From Phycisphaerae bacterium (lineage in GTDB: Bacteria; Chloroflexota; Anaerolineae; 4572-78; J111), in the NCBI GenBank assembly GCA_028285035.1, contig JANQQF010000075.1, forward strand, positions 1 to 11,787: a DNA stretch of 11,787 nt, in the 5' to 3' direction. Position 1 is the first letter of the stretch. Every line of letters starts with the position of its first letter. Below are positions 3,201 to 11,787 of this stretch, in pieces. The notes below the pieces were generated by a model. That model saw nothing but the letters and a program-made list of their open reading frames with translations, was not told the origin of the DNA and did not search any database. Made by a program: the position numbers and the translations under genes.

Positions 3201-3512
3201 CAACTGATCGAACCGCCAGGGGATCGGCTACCTTTAGGCGTTCTAAATGATGTGACCTATCAAGAAGCTTGTGTCACTATGAAACCAGGCGACTTGTTAA
3301 TTTTCTACACCGATGGCCTTGTCGAAGAACATAATGCCAAGGATGAACTCTTTGGCTTTGAACGCGTGTTGAACTTAGTCAATGAGATGCGTGGGCAAGG
3401 TCCAGACAAGGTGATGAATACCTTGTTAACAGCCATCCAAACCTTTGCTGGGCAAGAAGACCAGCACGATGATGTCACGCTGGTTGTCCTACAAAATCGT
3501 GGGACGTCATGA
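243..3512 (+). CDS. Multi-GAF sensor PP2C/SpoIIE-type serine phosphatase (RsbU-like)
   Basis: The protein of 1089 residues is a soluble signalling phosphatase. Five GAF-type repeats follow each other at about residues 24-166, 194-332, 357-499, 529-670 and 694-837; most end in the helix pattern 'A(V/T)xNAR(L/T)Y' that links tandem GAFs. A short helix with the signature ELELARQVQRGFFP leads into a SpoIIE/PP2C domain (about 860-1085). Likely metal ligands are present: GGD (Asp884), GDVSGK (Asp902), YTDG (Asp1024) and HDDVT (Asp1076/1077). The second Asp often found in GGDxxD is Thr. Members of this family usually dephosphorylate STAS-domain anti-anti-sigma factors; GAF ligands here are unknown. 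I chose ATG 243 because an in-frame TTG at 105 lies upstream of the promoter at 133-161; the ribosome site is weak, and GTG 207 is a second option. The stop overlaps the next start as ATGA. There are no membrane segments. Confidence 0.9.
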   Translation: MRSTTETLLTNLQKLLSLLDPNLNSTEMLNHVIAQVIEMFEVSYASLIRFEADQDSGLIIAEYPSRNSVGRTIPLKNYPLIQELISTQKPISVLDAQNDPIMGVVRRAMQTLEVKSLLMIPLIVRGKLIGGLSLEMIRTERQFTSKEIEMTALIANQIAVTIDYTDVHETIEQSHQESEILQQVNQRLGETLDLNEVLPLILEQLEQVLSVDGSSIYLLLDENVQLKARRGGYSPFLDQQIIPVNKLWGVSQVVQTKEALLINDTENHPNWEKYSGSPIRAWLGIPLVANGEVVGVLNIDGYSVNRFDEQLLPLALAFANQSAMAIYNARLYGQAKTRAELLASVQEIGVRLVSSFNLEDILQIVITSVIKLLDAGQARIYLYDDIEDSFTLAAILDNAGKFKMHIPQPRHDGLTYEVARSGEYMMIPDILFHPLYRNESGVHGFRAIASMPLKKRDKVLGVLNVFYAEFHHFAPEEVDALELLAVQIAVALENARLYSIEQERLEDQARRVKQWQQVQAISSTLNSSLNLDYILNTACERFTELINIDHCGVMLIEADGIGRLVAEHPSRGAIGLELPIDYPAFQAIMTDHQPYISANVGKDEQLGAAQPILERVGIQSLLLVPLVVQDQVIGSIGFDAIQAPRQFTEEEINIIRVVTDQMAIAVTNARTYEAEHEARLQANTLREVAEILGATLDLREVLSRILTQLKRLVTCDSASIILRETTHFPMVATKGLPEGVQIEGLTFALTQKPYFQEIARSKQPLVISDTAEFAGWDVETTKDIGSWVGVPLVVSDQLIGILTLEHQQPNFYHEDQGEVIKAFADLATVALENARLYEFEVKQVEQELELARQVQRGFFPDLLPDLPNWQLAAICRPAKETGGDFYTFVERPDETVGIIVGDVSGKSISAAMLMAGAHSVVRSKGSDHRSPAEVLREANRLLYDDVSDGSFVAVSYALISATEPKMWLSSGGQVAPIYVPANGEAVQLIEPPGDRLPLGVLNDVTYQEACVTMKPGDLLIFYTDGLVEEHNAKDELFGFERVLNLVNEMRGQGPDKVMNTLLTAIQTFAGQEDQHDDVTLVVLQNRGTS

Positions 3513-4643: not shown

Positions 4644-7391
4644 ATGACTAATCAAGCTGACACTTTAATTGACTCCAATTTTAGCTGGCAAGCGGCATTG
4701 TCTCTTGCCTTAAGTAGCAAGTTAGCCTATCAGCGAGCAGCTGCGGTTAAATCTGTGACGATGAATCAATGGGGATATGACGATTGTACATTCCTCGAAA
4801 AAAGTGACACCCAACTATTTGTAGCTGTTAAAGATGATAAAGTCGTGATCTCATTCCGGGGGTCACAAGGGCGGGGCGATTGGCTCAATAATTTTAGAGC
4901 GATTGGCACAAATGATCTTGCGGTTGGTCGAGTCCACACCGGGTTTTATCAAGCGTTTCAAGCGATAAAAGAATCATTGATTAAACTCATCAATGATTTG
5001 GGCAATGGCAAAAAGATTTGGCTAACAGGACATAGTTTGGGCGGGGCTTTAGCCACCATTTGTCTGGCCGAGTTGGACGCAAGCCATCATGATAAATTTC
5101 AAGCCTGCTACACTTATGGCCAACCGAGAGTTGGTCATAGTGGTATTGCCAATTTTATAAAAACAAATTATGGCGGACGGTATTTTCGCTTCGTCAATGA
5201 CGACGATATCGTGACTCGTATCCCCCCAATATATCGCCATGTTGGCGATTTGATACACTTTGCCGCTGATGGGTCGCTTCTCACCTCTCCTCCGATAGGC
5301 GATGATATGGCTGTGGAGGCAGATGAAGCAGAGATGCTTGAGACAGATACAGAGCCAACCACCACAGAAGCACCGCCTTTGACCGAAGCCGAGTTTGAGA
5401 AATTCTTAGCGACTGATGGAGAAGAAGACAGTGGCGATCTAAATCAAGATAGCACAACTGAAGGATTCTTTCCAAGTGTCCGCGATCATGATATGCAGGA
5501 ATACATTAGTAAAATTACCGCCCACGATCGAATTTCTGAGTCACGAGGCGATGTCGAAACTGTTTCAACCGATCGACAGGTTGAAAGATCGATGGAAATG
5601 ATGGCTGAAGTTGTCGAAAGCGATAGTGCTGCTGAGATGGAGGGTCTGGAAGGTATCGGCTTTGAGCCAGACAGTAGTTCGGCGCGTATACCAATTTTAA
5701 TCAAAGCGGCACCTGGCTGGACACCACCTGATGACATTAAGATTAACTCGGCGATTGGCGATATTCACACTGCTTTGGTAACAACAGGTCAATTGGAAAG
5801 ATTGCAACAAGATACACGAAATATCATCTCAATTGATCGCAGTTCTGATGACCTCATTCTTGATAGTCTCGTTTCGGTTCCATTTGTTAAAGCGGAACAA
5901 GTTCATTGGCCCCCACTCAGCGAAAAAGGCGATCAAGCCATCGTTGGAATCATCGACACCGGAATAGATGTACTCCATCAAGCATTCACAGACATCAATG
6001 ACCCAACAAAATCAAGAATATTATATGTTTGGAATCAAAATGACACGTCAAATGCTGGCCATGCACCGTCCGATATCGATCCCAATTTTTCGGCGAACTA
6101 TGGTCGTGTTTATACTCAAAATGAGATCGAACAATTTATGAGTGCTGGATCGGTTCCACACATTCGATTACGAGACCCTAACGGCCATGGCACCCACGTT
6201 TCGGGAATTGCGGCTGGTCGTGCGGTTGGTACAATTGGGGATGGTGTTGCGCCACAAGCCTTGCTAGCAGTTGTTATCCCAAGGCTACAGATTGAGCCAG
6301 AGGATCCACCCAGCATAGGCTACTCCTTGACCCACCTTGATGGCTTGCTCTTTTTGAAGGAGGTTGCCAAAAAACAGGGTTTACCGATAGCTATTAATAT
6401 TAGTCTAGGTCAAAATGCAGGTTCTCATGATGGCTCATCTACATTGGAGGCTGGCTTTGACTCAGTTCTTGGTCAGGGCCGGGAACCTGGTTTGGTTATT
6501 GTTAAATCAGCTGGGAATGAACGAGGCCATAAAGGACATGCTAAAGTTAATGTTACTACAAATCTCATTGAAACAGTGTCTTGGCGGTCAAAAGACAAGG
6601 TGCGTAAACAAGACTATATCGAGGGTTGGTATGACTCTTTTGATGACCTTGAGTTTGCCTTAATCGGTCCTAATAAGAAACGTTCAGGAGCAATTTCATT
6701 TGATCGAAATGCAGGCCCACAAGACACACCTCAAAAGAAAATGGGCAAGTTAGCTGGGAGTAATTATGAACTTAGTCTAACCAAGAATCATCGAGATAAT
6801 GGAAATAGTTTGATTCAGGTTATCATTACGCCCAGTGAGCCAGGTAAAAAGATTCGTAGAGGAATTTGGAAACTTGAAATTTTACGTCGAACGCCTGGGT
6901 CAGCCAGTGGACGTGTTGACTTCTGGATTGAGCGCACTCGGGCCCGAGCCATCAATTTTGAACAAGGTGCCGACGACAGTATGACCCTGAGCGTGCCAGG
7001 CACTGCCCGTCACGTAATTACAGTTGCAGCTTGCGCCCCTGATGGACCACCCATACGTTTAACATCCAGTTCATCCTATGGGCCGACACGTCAAAATGAG
7101 AAAAAACCAGAAATTACAGCTCCAGGAGACAATATTTTTTCCGCCCGATCAAATACAAACGATCCAACAGCTGGCGTCGCTGAGACCGGGACCAGCATGG
7201 CTGCCCCCCATGTTACGGGTGCAATTGCATTGGGCATGTCCAAACTGCATAAAGACGACCCAACCCGTCAATTCAATGCCGTTCGGTTTAAGCAAGCGTT
7301 GATACTAAACTCGATGGATGCATCTCCCAACCACCACCCTGGCCGAGGATTTGGCATTTTAGATGTTAAACGATTCTTCGATAGTCTTTAG
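4644..7391 (+). CDS. Fusion of class-3 lipase and subtilisin-family (S8) serine protease
   Basis: One continuous 915-residue frame holds two enzymes. The first (about 15-210) is a class-3 lipase: FRGS (71-74), HTGF, nucleophile Ser131 in GHSLG, then VNDDDIV with Asp188 and YRHVG with His199 completing the triad. Residues about 215-345 are an acidic Asp/Glu-rich linker. Residues about 348-425 (beginning RIPILIKAAPGW) look like an inhibitor-I9-type prodomain. The S8 domain has Asp438 (IIDTGID), His515 (NGHGTHVSG), oxyanion Asn625 (SAGNE) and Ser851 (GTSMAAPHV), with an inserted beta-rich region at about 640-775 as in several large subtilases. The start ATG has AGGAGAG at 4632-4638. No signal peptide or membrane helix is visible at the N terminus, so export, if any, is not by a recognisable Sec signal. 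Likely acts on acyl esters and proteins; natural substrates are unknown. Confidence 0.9.
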   Translation: MTNQADTLIDSNFSWQAALSLALSSKLAYQRAAAVKSVTMNQWGYDDCTFLEKSDTQLFVAVKDDKVVISFRGSQGRGDWLNNFRAIGTNDLAVGRVHTGFYQAFQAIKESLIKLINDLGNGKKIWLTGHSLGGALATICLAELDASHHDKFQACYTYGQPRVGHSGIANFIKTNYGGRYFRFVNDDDIVTRIPPIYRHVGDLIHFAADGSLLTSPPIGDDMAVEADEAEMLETDTEPTTTEAPPLTEAEFEKFLATDGEEDSGDLNQDSTTEGFFPSVRDHDMQEYISKITAHDRISESRGDVETVSTDRQVERSMEMMAEVVESDSAAEMEGLEGIGFEPDSSSARIPILIKAAPGWTPPDDIKINSAIGDIHTALVTTGQLERLQQDTRNIISIDRSSDDLILDSLVSVPFVKAEQVHWPPLSEKGDQAIVGIIDTGIDVLHQAFTDINDPTKSRILYVWNQNDTSNAGHAPSDIDPNFSANYGRVYTQNEIEQFMSAGSVPHIRLRDPNGHGTHVSGIAAGRAVGTIGDGVAPQALLAVVIPRLQIEPEDPPSIGYSLTHLDGLLFLKEVAKKQGLPIAINISLGQNAGSHDGSSTLEAGFDSVLGQGREPGLVIVKSAGNERGHKGHAKVNVTTNLIETVSWRSKDKVRKQDYIEGWYDSFDDLEFALIGPNKKRSGAISFDRNAGPQDTPQKKMGKLAGSNYELSLTKNHRDNGNSLIQVIITPSEPGKKIRRGIWKLEILRRTPGSASGRVDFWIERTRARAINFEQGADDSMTLSVPGTARHVITVAACAPDGPPIRLTSSSSYGPTRQNEKKPEITAPGDNIFSARSNTNDPTAGVAETGTSMAAPHVTGAIALGMSKLHKDDPTRQFNAVRFKQALILNSMDASPNHHPGRGFGILDVKRFFDSL

Positions 7392-7432: not shown

Positions 7433-8326
7433 CTATTTCGCTAAAATCCCCTCACAGGTCACCCGCACATCCTCAACAAAGGCTTTGGCTAAATAAGACT
7501 GGATACGGCCCCGATGCCATGCCGCGACGATGGTGCGGGTGGGGGGATGATCTGAGATCGCAACATAGGTACATTGCCCCTGCCCCTCCGAGACCACCGA
7601 CATTTTAGGGATCAATGAGATGCCTAACCCCGAGGCCACACAAGCTTTGATCGTCGATAGCTGAGCAGTGTGGCAAACGATGTCAGGCGACACTTTGTGT
7701 TCGTAACAATAGGCTTGTACCTGTTCCCCCAAGCAATGAATCTCATTTAAGGCAATGAAGGGGATGCCTTCCAAATCATCAATGGATGGAGTTCCCTCAA
7801 AAAATGGATTTTCATTGGACACGGCGATCAGCAGAGGTTCGGTCACCAGTGTTTCGGTCTGAATTAATTTATTATTGATCGGCAAGCTCATGATGCCGAC
7901 ATCAATCTCGGCGGTGATCAACTTTTCAATGAGATCATCGGTCAAATCCTCGGTTACCGATAAGGTTGCACTCTGATACTTCTCCTTAAATAAATTCAAT
8001 GCTTCTGGTAAGACAAAAGGAGCAATGGTGGGGATAAATCCAACCGTGAGGTGCCCACCACCTTCATCTATCTCCCTCAGAACATTTCTCTGAATATCTT
8101 GTACTTCAGCCAAAATGCGTTTTGCTTTTGGCAAAAGCACTTTACCCGCTTCGGTCAAAGCGACCGACCGCCCCAACCGATCAAACAGCTTTTCGCCCAA
8201 CTCTTGCTCTAGCTTAATAATCTGCTGGCTGAGTGAGGGTTGGGCCACATTACAGCGTTTCGCCGCTCGGCTAAAGCCACCTGTTTCAGCAACAGCTACA
8301 AAATATTGAAGTTGGTGGATTTCCAT
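7433..8326 (-). CDS. oxyR: OxyR, LysR-type hydrogen-peroxide sensor and regulator
   Basis: The 297-residue protein has a LysR-type winged helix-turn-helix at the N terminus (MEIHQLQYFVAVAE; helix pair about 18-40 with SRAAKRCNVAQPSLSQQI) and a two-lobed effector domain. It carries HCL followed by YC: Cys198 and Cys207, nine residues apart, matching Cys199/Cys208 of E. coli OxyR, which form the disulfide on peroxide exposure. This pair separates OxyR from general LysR regulators. The start is the ATG complementary to 8324-8326, preceded by GGAG (8335-8338 on the plus strand). A longer reading from 8374 would overlap its own -10 box. It is divergent from katG with a shared OxyR site between them, so it very likely activates katG and controls itself. 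Confidence 0.93.
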   Translation of the reverse strand: MEIHQLQYFVAVAETGGFSRAAKRCNVAQPSLSQQIIKLEQELGEKLFDRLGRSVALTEAGKVLLPKAKRILAEVQDIQRNVLREIDEGGGHLTVGFIPTIAPFVLPEALNLFKEKYQSATLSVTEDLTDDLIEKLITAEIDVGIMSLPINNKLIQTETLVTEPLLIAVSNENPFFEGTPSIDDLEGIPFIALNEIHCLGEQVQAYCYEHKVSPDIVCHTAQLSTIKACVASGLGISLIPKMSVVSEGQGQCTYVAISDHPPTRTIVAAWHRGRIQSYLAKAFVEDVRVTCEGILAK

Positions 8327-8360
8327 AATAAATGCTCCAATAAAAGTGCAGAATAAACAA

Positions 8361-8390
8361 ATAATAGAACGCAAAGCTATAGTTTGTCAA
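8361..8390 (-). promoter_or_regulatory. oxyR promoter
   Basis: Read on the minus strand, TTGACA (8390-8385) and TATTAT (8366-8361) are 18 bp apart, giving a strong sigma-70 promoter. Transcription would begin near 8354, leaving a leader of about 28 bases. The OxyR site at 8412-8448 lies about 22 bp upstream of the -35 box, suited to autoregulation. Confidence 0.65.
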
Positions 8391-8411
8391 ACTTGCTTCC
8401 ATATTTTATCC

Positions 8412-8448
8412 ATAGGCATTAGCTATAGGTTTGATAGGCCAAAAGTAT
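8412..8448. promoter_or_regulatory. OxyR binding site, four quarter-sites
   Basis: The 37 bp read ATAG-N7-CTAT-N7-ATAG-N7-GTAT, matching the tetrameric OxyR consensus ATAG-N7-CTAT repeated at one-turn spacing in 15 of 16 positions. The right edge (GTAT, 8445-8448) touches the katG -35 box, the usual place for OxyR to contact RNA polymerase. The other side faces the oxyR promoter. The site and the neighbouring oxyR and katG genes support each other. Confidence 0.85.
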
Positions 8449-8477
8449 TGGACAGGAATGCATTTTGAAAATACAAT
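8448..8477 (+). promoter_or_regulatory. katG promoter
   Basis: TTGGAC (8448-8453) and TACAAT (8472-8477) are 18 bp apart, a less-than-perfect -35 as expected for an activator-dependent promoter. It directly abuts the OxyR site. Transcription would start near 8484, giving a leader of about 130 bases. Confidence 0.6.
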
Positions 8478-8501
8478 ATCCATTGTAAGGTAGGAAATAT
8501 T

Positions 8502-8542
8502 GATGGATTGTTTGATTGGGAATAAGAGAAACCAAATCCATC
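8502..8542 (+). other. Hairpin in the katG leader
   Basis: GATGGATT (8502-8509) pairs perfectly with AATCCATC (8535-8542), and GTTT (8510-8513) with AAAC (8529-8532) across a two-base bulge, leaving a 15-base loop. It lies in the predicted 5' leader of katG. No T-run follows, so it is not a terminator; it could affect mRNA stability or be chance. Confidence 0.35.
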
Positions 8543-8553
8543 GTTATATATAA

Positions 8554-10818
<2,265 letters not shown>

Positions 10819-10840
10819 TCTCATAAAAGAAAAATGAACT

Positions 10841-10882
10841 AAAAAGGCCTTCGAAGTCTAATTGACTTTGAAGGTCTTTTTT
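10841..10882 (+). terminator. Strong intrinsic terminator after katG
   Basis: An 18-base arm (10841-10858) pairs with 10864-10881 with only two G-T wobbles around a 5-base loop TAATT, and the hairpin ends in a run of six T (10877-10882). The left arm begins with AAAAAG, so it could also work on the minus strand. It lies 22 bases after the katG stop and separates katG from the next gene. Confidence 0.9.
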
Positions 10883-10924
10883 GATATTGATACACTTGAC
10901 TAAAGTATAAATATAGGAGGCTAT

Positions 10925-11638
10925 ATGTCTACACAAAAAAAATTAGTACAACAGACATACACTGCCATTCTTGAGCATCTGGTAGAATTTGGGCGAGCCC
11001 CCCATTATACAAAATTGGCAAAGTTGCTCCATGTCGATGTTGAGACAGCTAAGGATTTACAAAAACAAGCTGCGGATGTGGGAGTCGGCTGTTGGCTTAC
11101 TCATAAGACAGATTACATTGAATCTTGGGCACCATTCTCTAATTTACCAACACATCACGAGGTCACAGTGGATGGTGAACAGAAGTGGTATGCCCAGTGA
11201 GGTCTTGAGGCGCTGGCCGTGTGCTGGCTTTTTCCTGGCAAAGCAGTGCAAATTAATACCCGCTGTTTAGATTGTGGCGAGGAAATTCAAATTCAAATGA
11301 AGGATGGGGGAATTTTAGATGCCAATCCTTCGACCATCGTTGGTCATATGAATATCCCATTCGCTAAAAATATCACGGATGAAGTTAATATTGCGTATGC
11401 CTGAGGTCAGATGAATCTCTTTCGGTCGGAAGAGCATGTAAAAAATTGGTCAGATTACGATCCCATCTCAGCAGAAGCCATTATGCCTCTCGCTGACTGG
11501 GCGGCTGTGTTCAGTGGGCCTCTTTTTCGCAATCGGTTAGATCCTGATATGATCATCAATACAAGAACGTATTGGGCTGATTTTTTTGCCCGATTGGCGA
11601 ATTTAGGAAGAACAGGATCATTTTGGAGGCCTGAGTAG
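10925..11638 (+). CDS. Alkylmercury-lyase (MerB)-like selenoprotein with two predicted selenocysteines
   Basis: This is one frame of 237 codons ending in TAG, with TGA at codons 92 (11198-11200) and 160 (11402-11404) and no other internal stop. Residues 1-60 form a winged-helix-like start, followed by PFSNLPTHHEV and WYAQ-U-GLEAL. MerB of plasmid R831b reads YAWC(96)ALD(99) here, so TGA sits on catalytic Cys96 and Glu95 takes the Asp99 place. A CxxC (Cys114, Cys117) lies near MerB Cys117. The second TGA, in AYA-U-GQMNLFRSEEHV..W, aligns without gaps on Cys159 of MerB FCCHVHFF. The C-terminal part (RLDPD, then GSFW) fits the wider MerB-like family. A strong AGGAGG (10915-10920) fixes the start. 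MerB breaks carbon-mercury bonds; no merA, merR or merT is nearby, so the substrate here is open. The alternative, a pseudogene with two nonsense mutations exactly at both catalytic Cys, is much less likely. The selenocysteine machinery is not in this window. Confidence 0.82.
11198..11200 (+). other. Predicted selenocysteine codon 92 (TGA)
   Basis: This in-frame TGA lies between WYAQ and GLEALAVCW, where MerB-like proteins have their first catalytic Cys (Cys96 in R831b MerB). Reading continues in the same frame with conserved residues. The following bases are GGTC, as at the second TGA. Confidence 0.78.
11205..11241 (+). promoter_or_regulatory. Candidate SECIS hairpin for Sec92
   Basis: Four bases after the TGA, TTGAGG (11205-11210) pairs with CCTggCAA (11234-11241, two-base bulge). 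After a 4x4 internal loop, GGCC (11215-11218) pairs with GGCT (11226-11229), closing a 7-base loop GTGTGCT whose first G is 19 bases after TGA. Bacterial SECIS elements need a small loop with G in the first two places about 16-37 bases from UGA. The upper stem is short, and an alternative fold (GGCGC/GTGCT, loop TGGCCGT) is possible. Confidence 0.5.
11402..11404 (+). other. Predicted selenocysteine codon 160 (TGA)
   Basis: This second in-frame TGA lies between NIAYA and GQMNLFRSEEHV. Aligned without gaps to MerB from the later conserved Trp, it falls on catalytic Cys159. The downstream frame stays open for 77 codons with family-typical residues. Confidence 0.78.
11411..11437 (+). promoter_or_regulatory. 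SECIS hairpin for Sec160
   Basis: CTCTTTC (11417-11423) pairs with GGAAGAG (11428-11434) in a 7-bp stem with one wobble, capped by the tetraloop GGTC (11424-11427), 20 bases after the TGA. ATG (11411-11413) and CAT (11435-11437) extend it below a three-base bulge AAT. GGUC is the loop of the E. coli fdhF SECIS as I recall it, and a bulge in the stem is also a feature of that element. Confidence 0.75.
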
Positions 11639-11691
11639 TAACATTTGATGTTGTACGAAATAGTTATAACCAAACCAATTTTATGTATTAG

Positions 11692-11787
11692 ATGTGCTCC
11701 GCAATAAGGTTCAGAGATCGGATGGTCCGGTTTTACAGCGAATTTGAGGATTTACCAAAGATTTTCATTCGTTTAATCCCTCAATGT
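11692..11787 (+). CDS. Possible start of an unidentified ORF (partial)
   Basis: From ATG 11692 (or ATG 11722) the frame is open to the window end, 32 codons (or 22), with a stretch reading FYSEFEDLPKIFIRL. There is no good ribosome site before either ATG and no family is recognised. The rest of 11639-11787 shows nothing I can name. Confidence 0.2.
   Translation, partial: MCSAIRFRDRMVRFYSEFEDLPKIFIRLIPQC

Follow-up and report, generated by a model that had tools for sequence, protein, structure and literature searches.

A 237-codon gene near the end of contig JANQQF010000075.1 (Phycisphaerae bacterium, assembly GCA_028285035.1; the whole stretch of 11,787 nucleotides is referred to here as the window) almost certainly encodes a protein of the MerB fold in which selenocysteine (Sec) takes the place of both catalytic cysteines. 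This reading, already proposed in an initial annotation of the DNA, is supported because the two in-frame TGA codons concerned are conserved across phyla, because Cys is found as the alternative, because a family-level RNA structure resembling a Sec insertion sequence (SECIS) follows the TGA codons, and because SelB and/or tRNA-Sec is present in 36 of 38 genomes that carry such genes. The main role of the protein is probably that of an organometal lyase.

The gene and its two in-frame TGA codons

Retranslation with table 11 agrees with the initial annotation that a single frame of 237 codons contains exactly two internal stops, both TGA (codons 92 and 160; Table 1). Against the Pfam MerB family (PF03243) the read-through protein scores 88.1 bits, where the gathering cut-off is 27, and alignments with MerB and MerB2 place the two TGA codons, as had been stated, on the cysteines at the catalytic positions. 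The catalytic residues of MerB are given as Cys96, Asp99 and Cys159 (PMC8261052); both cysteine columns are TGA in the window gene, with Sec predicted as the functional equivalent, and where the annotation had an equivalent of Asp99 the residue proves to be Glu (Glu95), as in every one of the 81 genes described below. TGA has also retained its meaning as a stop, in line with the annotation, since the phosphatase open reading frame (ORF) in the window ends in TGA at 3510-3512.

Conservation of the two TGA codons

Relatives were collected by scanning one genome per species, which gave 272 loci; the best 80 of the 272 and the window gene make up a set of 81 genes, drawn from records with titles that span Chloroflexi, Deltaproteobacteria, Actinomycetota, Acidobacteria, Nitrospirae and Gammaproteobacteria. 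At columns 92 and 160 the codons are TGA/TGA in 78 of the 81 (77 of the 80 relatives, plus the window) and Cys/TGA in the remaining three (TGT in two, TGC in one). None of the 81 genes has TGG at either column, and all 81 have TGG at Trp101. Nor is TGA found in these genes at any other column from 1 to 235; five rows carry it at columns 236-237, the end of the protein. The initial annotation had named, among the results that would refute it, homologues lacking Cys at these columns and random further stops in close relatives: Cys is in fact found there in homologues, and no such stops were seen in the relatives.

As a conserved peptide word was a condition of the scan of 272 loci, with similarity deciding the ranking of its matches, the count was repeated in an evenly drawn sample of 247 genomes from the phylum of locus L001 (record titled Syntrophobacteraceae, read as Desulfobacterota). 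All 17 matches above 260 bits, which sit in 13 genomes, centre genome included, have exactly two TGA codons, and the remaining nine matches, at 93 bits or less, are without a stop. A sample of 251 genomes from the phylum of L003 (record titled Anaerolineales, read as Chloroflexota) yielded MerB-family matches with zero, one or two stops, all of them TGA. Coding constraint continues past each TGA: differences from six relatives are 1.9 to 3.9 times as frequent at third as at second codon positions before, between and after the two codons. Because the same two columns are TGA in 78 of 81 genes with none elsewhere before the C-terminal end, and because 17 of 17 strong matches have exactly two, the double TGA cannot be put down to chance, decay or a change of code.

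RNA structure downstream of the TGA codons

Folding of the 39 bases that follow each of 34 columns was compared with that of versions encoding the same protein with synonymous codons from the same gene, for 79 of the 81 genes (L071 and L078 were excluded, a bounding column being gapped). Downstream of columns 92 and 160 the mean z reaches -0.98 and -1.91, respectively; the neighbouring tested columns 86, 158 and 164 give -0.41, -1.43 and -1.25, and all other columns lie between -0.29 and +0.32. The hairpin beyond the second TGA is CTCTTCC-GGTC-GGAAGAG in most genes, with its loop 19 bases past the TGA, and the window differs in having CTCTTTC as the first arm. Its codons are all but invariant: Arg167 is CGG in 80 of 80 and Ser168 TCG in 80 of 80, with Phe166 TTC in 80 of 81, against background shares of 0.26, 0.21 and 0.54, respectively. 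Downstream of the first TGA, Ser96 is TCG in 58 of 60 genes and Leu97 CTG in 67 of 81. In the 38 of 81 sequences used for the consensus fold, a single one of the seven pairs of the second hairpin has changed on both sides (in eight sequences, with ten broken at that outermost pair), so that the evidence for this hairpin consists of frozen synonymous sites and not of covariation. We take its GGTC loop to resemble the GGUCU loop of the Escherichia coli fdhF SECIS.

In the wider family (76 genes), the mean z is -1.31 at Sec sites (n = 88) and -0.05 at Cys sites (n = 64; nominal p 4e-11), and Sec sites outside the group to which the window belongs, that with Sec/Sec/Glu, still average -0.98 (n = 34; nominal p 2.5e-5), though both p values overstate the significance, the rows being related. 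Taken at the level of the family, there is RNA structure beyond what coding needs after both TGA codons and, on average, it is found at Sec and not at Cys sites. A scan of 10800-11787 against Rfam gave a lone match to a fungal small nucleolar RNA (21 bits, E 0.14), which was rejected.

Selenocysteine machinery in carrier genomes

We searched the genomes of loci L001-L040 (40 of the 80); with L023 left out and one genome shared by L009 and L032, these amount to 38. A tRNA-Sec of at least 57 bits was found in 32 and SelB over its cut-off in 32, both in 28 and at least one in 36. These figures leave out tRNA-Sec matches scoring 47 to 55 bits, which are weak and could be other long-arm tRNAs; counted by the cut-off of the search itself, tRNA-Sec is found in 33 of 38. 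Among the 14 genomes of the Chloroflexota sample with a TGA-bearing MerB-family gene, SelB is over its cut-off in 12, tRNA-Sec is found in 12 and at least one of the two in all 14. The chromosome-level assembly from which L003 comes has a double-TGA gene and a tRNA-Sec of 67.5 bits and shows no SelB over the cut-off.

A number of observations weigh against the double-Sec reading, those concerning function being taken up further below. Two of the 38 carrier genomes (G008 and G030) show neither SelB nor tRNA-Sec. In the phylum of L003 the background is high (SelB in 192 of 251 genomes, tRNA-Sec in 184), and because both are common there anyway, the machinery is weak evidence in that phylum, supporting Sec without proving it. 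The contrast between Sec and Cys sites is uneven, with Cys-site means after column 160 of -0.31 (n = 18) and -0.68 (n = 7), and the second Sec site averages only -0.43 in the other double-Sec clade described below (n = 10) and -0.63 in the Cys/Sec/Asp group (n = 11), values within the range of Cys sites. Taken alone, the window gives a weak signal with synonymous shuffles (z -0.52 for the first hairpin and -1.25 for the second), and dinucleotide shuffles of the 48 bases from each TGA reveal no excess of structure in it (z +1.66 and -0.21; without the TGA, +1.38 and -0.96). Finally, the first hairpin and the run of T that follows it also fit an intrinsic terminator (three overlapping hits, where shuffles give a mean of 0.8).

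Relationship to other MerB-like families

The window protein shares with MerB (PDB 3f0o, 3f2f and 5c17) its Pfam family, fold, two catalytic positions and an acidic residue three past the first, and differs in that Sec codons replace those of Cys96 and Cys159, that Glu stands in place of Asp99 and that it has an extra cysteine, Cys117. It scores 42 and 36 bits against the NCBI MerB equivalogs NF009710 and NF033555, far below their cut-offs of 193 and 200. The best NCBIfam match is to SaoL (NF040728), whose cut-off of 140 bits is far above the 52.9 scored here, and all 27 aligned members of the window family that were scanned likewise match SaoL weakly (best E 1.9e-14, an estimated ~54 bits).

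SaoL is listed in Table 1 of a 2026 inventory of 119 families (PMC13188914) as the MerB-like protein of a Sec-assisted organometallic system, with one Sec in the motif CU. A single-Sec MerB-like relative is thus already known, and the double-Sec form is a variant that does not appear in the part of that inventory available to us; it may be mentioned in Haft and Gwadz 2023 or in Haft and Tolstoy 2025. Proteins with at least two Sec per chain, such as MbdU, MduS and TsoB, are also in Table 1 of the inventory, and none of them is listed there as MerB-like. Like the window protein, SaoL is a MerB-like selenoprotein with Sec at the Cys159 column, as seen at locus L114, which is SaoL over the cut-off (175.7 bits). 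Unlike it, SaoL has one Sec, its first and second sites reading Cys-Ala-Ile-Asp and Cys-Sec, where the window family has Sec at both and Glu for Asp; the residue before Sec160 is Ala in the window and Cys in the CU motif. No SAO gene neighbourhood was seen among the ORFs of the window, which stops 149 bases past the gene and whose ORFs were not scanned for Sao families. Apart from the SaoL of L114, the combination of Cys at the first catalytic site with TGA at the second is seen in the MerB-like genes of L092, L093, L095, L097, L098, L102, L106, L108, L109 and L115.

A tree of 76 proteins was built by a quick method with midpoint rooting and with Shimodaira-Hasegawa-like approximate likelihood ratio test (SH-aLRT) supports in place of bootstrap; it includes 20 of the 81 genes, rows L099, L110, L116 and L139 having been dropped beforehand, and its several long branches carry a warning that such branches may meet. 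The window lies within a clade of 30 (27 Sec/Sec/Glu and 3 Cys/Sec/Glu; SH-aLRT 99) that adjoins five Cys/Cys/Glu proteins (SH-aLRT 95). These five nearest neighbours (L122, L129, L134, L136 and L143) are natural Cys/Cys controls. Ten further proteins (L113, L117, L119, L120, L121, L124, L125, L128, L131 and L142), of the type UAVDA ... FUKESVFFRSEE, likewise have TGA at both catalytic columns, but differ from the window family in keeping Asp at the Asp99 column and in forming a clade of their own (SH-aLRT 99) across the midpoint root. Double Sec was gained in two places, or once at depth with frequent losses, two histories that the tree cannot separate.

Proposed function

In the window's organism, SelB together with tRNA-Sec would insert Sec at both TGA codons. 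By analogy with the cysteines of MerB, Sec92 and Sec160 may then form a two-selenolate site that holds the metal, and Glu95, standing in the place of Asp99, may move the proton that frees the alkyl group; such a site would be likely to bind organometals and to break the carbon-metal bond, with methylmercury as one candidate substrate. We infer cleavage of this kind from the likeness to MerB. Selenium chemistry offers a parallel, in that cleavage of the Hg-C bond is faster with selone mimics than with sulphur ones (PMC11639659). The replacement of Asp99 by Glu in all 81 genes counts against the assignment; computations on the removal of mercury from MerB give Asp99 an accessory role in proton transfer (PMC4525700).

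Also on the unfavourable side is the genomic setting. At 11 of the 80 loci the frame continues into a C-terminal partner, an AAA+ ATPase in eight (L017, L018, L019, L020, L027, L033, L046 and L055) and a class III nucleotidyl cyclase in three (L022, L032 and L047), as judged by Pfam for three of the 11 tails (one AAA+, two cyclase) and by sequence likeness for the others; the fused MerB domains carry TGA at both columns, apart from that of L047, which has Cys and TGA. Such fusions fit sensing equally well. MerA is over its cut-off in only 6 of the 38 carriers, and no cluster of neighbouring genes is common to more than five of the 80 loci, many of which lie on short contigs and had neighbours that were not searched for mer genes; like the fusions, this speaks against a plain operon for detoxification. 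Together with the Glu at the Asp99 column, the fusions and the scarcity of MerA speak for a protein with Sec at both positions that receives or carries metals or organometals without cleaving them and that, when fused, switches the cyclase or ATPase. We regard this as rather unlikely, though the strongest of the alternatives: no AAA+ or cyclase partner is seen at the other 69 loci or in the window, and the retention of the catalytic cysteine columns and of an acidic residue, along with the occurrence of Sec/Sec in two clades, fits chemistry better than mere binding.

Two Sec residues could instead form a redox-active diselenide, with the cysteines of the CLDC motif as resolving thiols and a substrate other than a metal. 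The review PMC13188914 regards a redox role as likely for most uncharacterized selenoproteins and the two cysteines of CLDC are kept in 80 and 77 of the 81 genes, but the fold is that of MerB, both Sec fall on its metal-binding cysteines and the acidic residue is invariant, all of which make this proposal improbable.

Returning to the organometal lyase, we put forward more tentatively a broader proposal, that two separate clades of the MerB fold have each arrived at a metal site made of two selenolates, and that the window's clade, with its wide span of record titles and its absence from the available part of the PMC13188914 inventory, may represent a new class of organometal enzyme based on selenium, which in some bacteria would act as a switch that senses organometals and drives a cyclase or an AAA+ ATPase. 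Should both positions be Sec, selenium would stand in for sulphur at both metal-binding catalytic positions of an enzyme family, and one fold offers a natural series of Cys/Cys, Cys/Sec and Sec/Sec forms in which the contribution of selenium can be tested.

Some genomes of the carrier lineages also have the mercury-methylation gene hgcA, which is over its cut-off in 10 of the 38 carriers. In the sample from the phylum of L001, it is present in 8 of 13 double-Sec genomes and in 60 of 234 others (one-sided Fisher p 0.009), and use of the curated cut-off lowers the former count to 7 of 13 (p 0.033); removal of the centre genome changes these p values to 0.020 and 0.069. With kinship and genome size uncorrected, the greater frequency of hgcA in double-Sec genomes is a hint only.

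Probable hidden entries in databases

Database proteins of this family may be disguised. In alignment A1, 19 of 21 have Trp at both columns (P0003, P0005-P0010, P0013-P0016, P0018, P0019, P0021, P0022, P0026, P0033, P0042 and P0043), apparently from TGA read with code 4; of the other two, P0004 has Cys at both and P0002 Ser and Cys. Many other database proteins, among the matches listed, are of 152 to 163 residues, with Cys at column 92 and an end near column 160. These patterns would fit code 4 applied to TGA/TGA genes, or truncation at the second TGA. The 19 Trp proteins might also suggest that TGA is decoded as tryptophan in the carrier organisms themselves, for which we see next to no likelihood: such residues are what code 4 gene calling of the same TGA genes would give, the genome DNA has TGA or Cys codons and never TGG at these columns in the 81 genes while keeping TGG at Trp101, the window's phosphatase ends in TGA, and the RNA structure is located at the TGA codons. 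A decayed gene or sequencing errors would suit the outcome of mechanical ORF calling (at least 80 residues), which follows the frame no further than codon 91, but can be dismissed with equal assurance: separate records show the same two TGA codons for 78 of the 81 genes, there is no other stop, and coding constraint persists past each TGA.

Because gene callers apparently cut double-Sec genes at a TGA or write Trp, surveys of merB would miss or mislabel them; if both sites are Sec, the microbial breakdown of methylmercury or of other organometals would be undercounted. Eight more database proteins, P0090-P0094, P0096 and P0098 (AAA) and P0099 (cyclase), resemble fused proteins begun after the second TGA.

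Features and neighbouring genes

Table 1. Positions in the window of the MerB-like gene and of its associated elements
Feature	Position	Strand	Basis
Double-Sec MerB-like gene (predicted), 237 codons and TAG	10925..11638	+	Single frame, translated with table 11
Shine-Dalgarno-like AGGAGG, 4 bases 5' of ATG	10915..10920	+	Direct reading of the sequence
TGA1, codon 92, MerB Cys96 column, predicted Sec	11198..11200	+	Alignment; TGA 78/81, Cys 3/81
Glu95 codon, MerB Asp99 column	11207..11209	+	Glu 81/81
First SECIS-like hairpin, GCTGGC-CGTGT-GCTGGC	11212..11228	+	Fold; family mean z -0.98 (synonymous shuffles); T run 3'
CLDC motif, Cys114 (MerB Cys117 column) and Cys117	11264..11275	+	Cys 80/81 and 77/81
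TGA2, codon 160, MerB Cys159 column, predicted Sec	11402..11404	+	TGA 81/81
Second SECIS-like hairpin, CTCTTTC-GGTC-GGAAGAG, loop 11424-11427	11417..11434	+	Consensus fold of 38/81 sequences; family mean z -1.91
True stop TAG	11636..11638	+	Translation

A promoter scan found two sites, against 2.7 in shuffles, with none positioned to serve the MerB-like gene, and comparison of the other window genes with the loci of the relatives gave one weak match. Judged from its translation, an ORF of 915 residues at 4644-7391 combines a lipase-like N-terminal region with a subtilisin-like protease region downstream of it. Directly upstream of the MerB-like gene, at 7433-10818, a minus-strand gene for a LysR-type regulator diverges from one for a katG-like catalase-peroxidase, again as judged from translation, a pair that makes for oxidative-stress neighbours.
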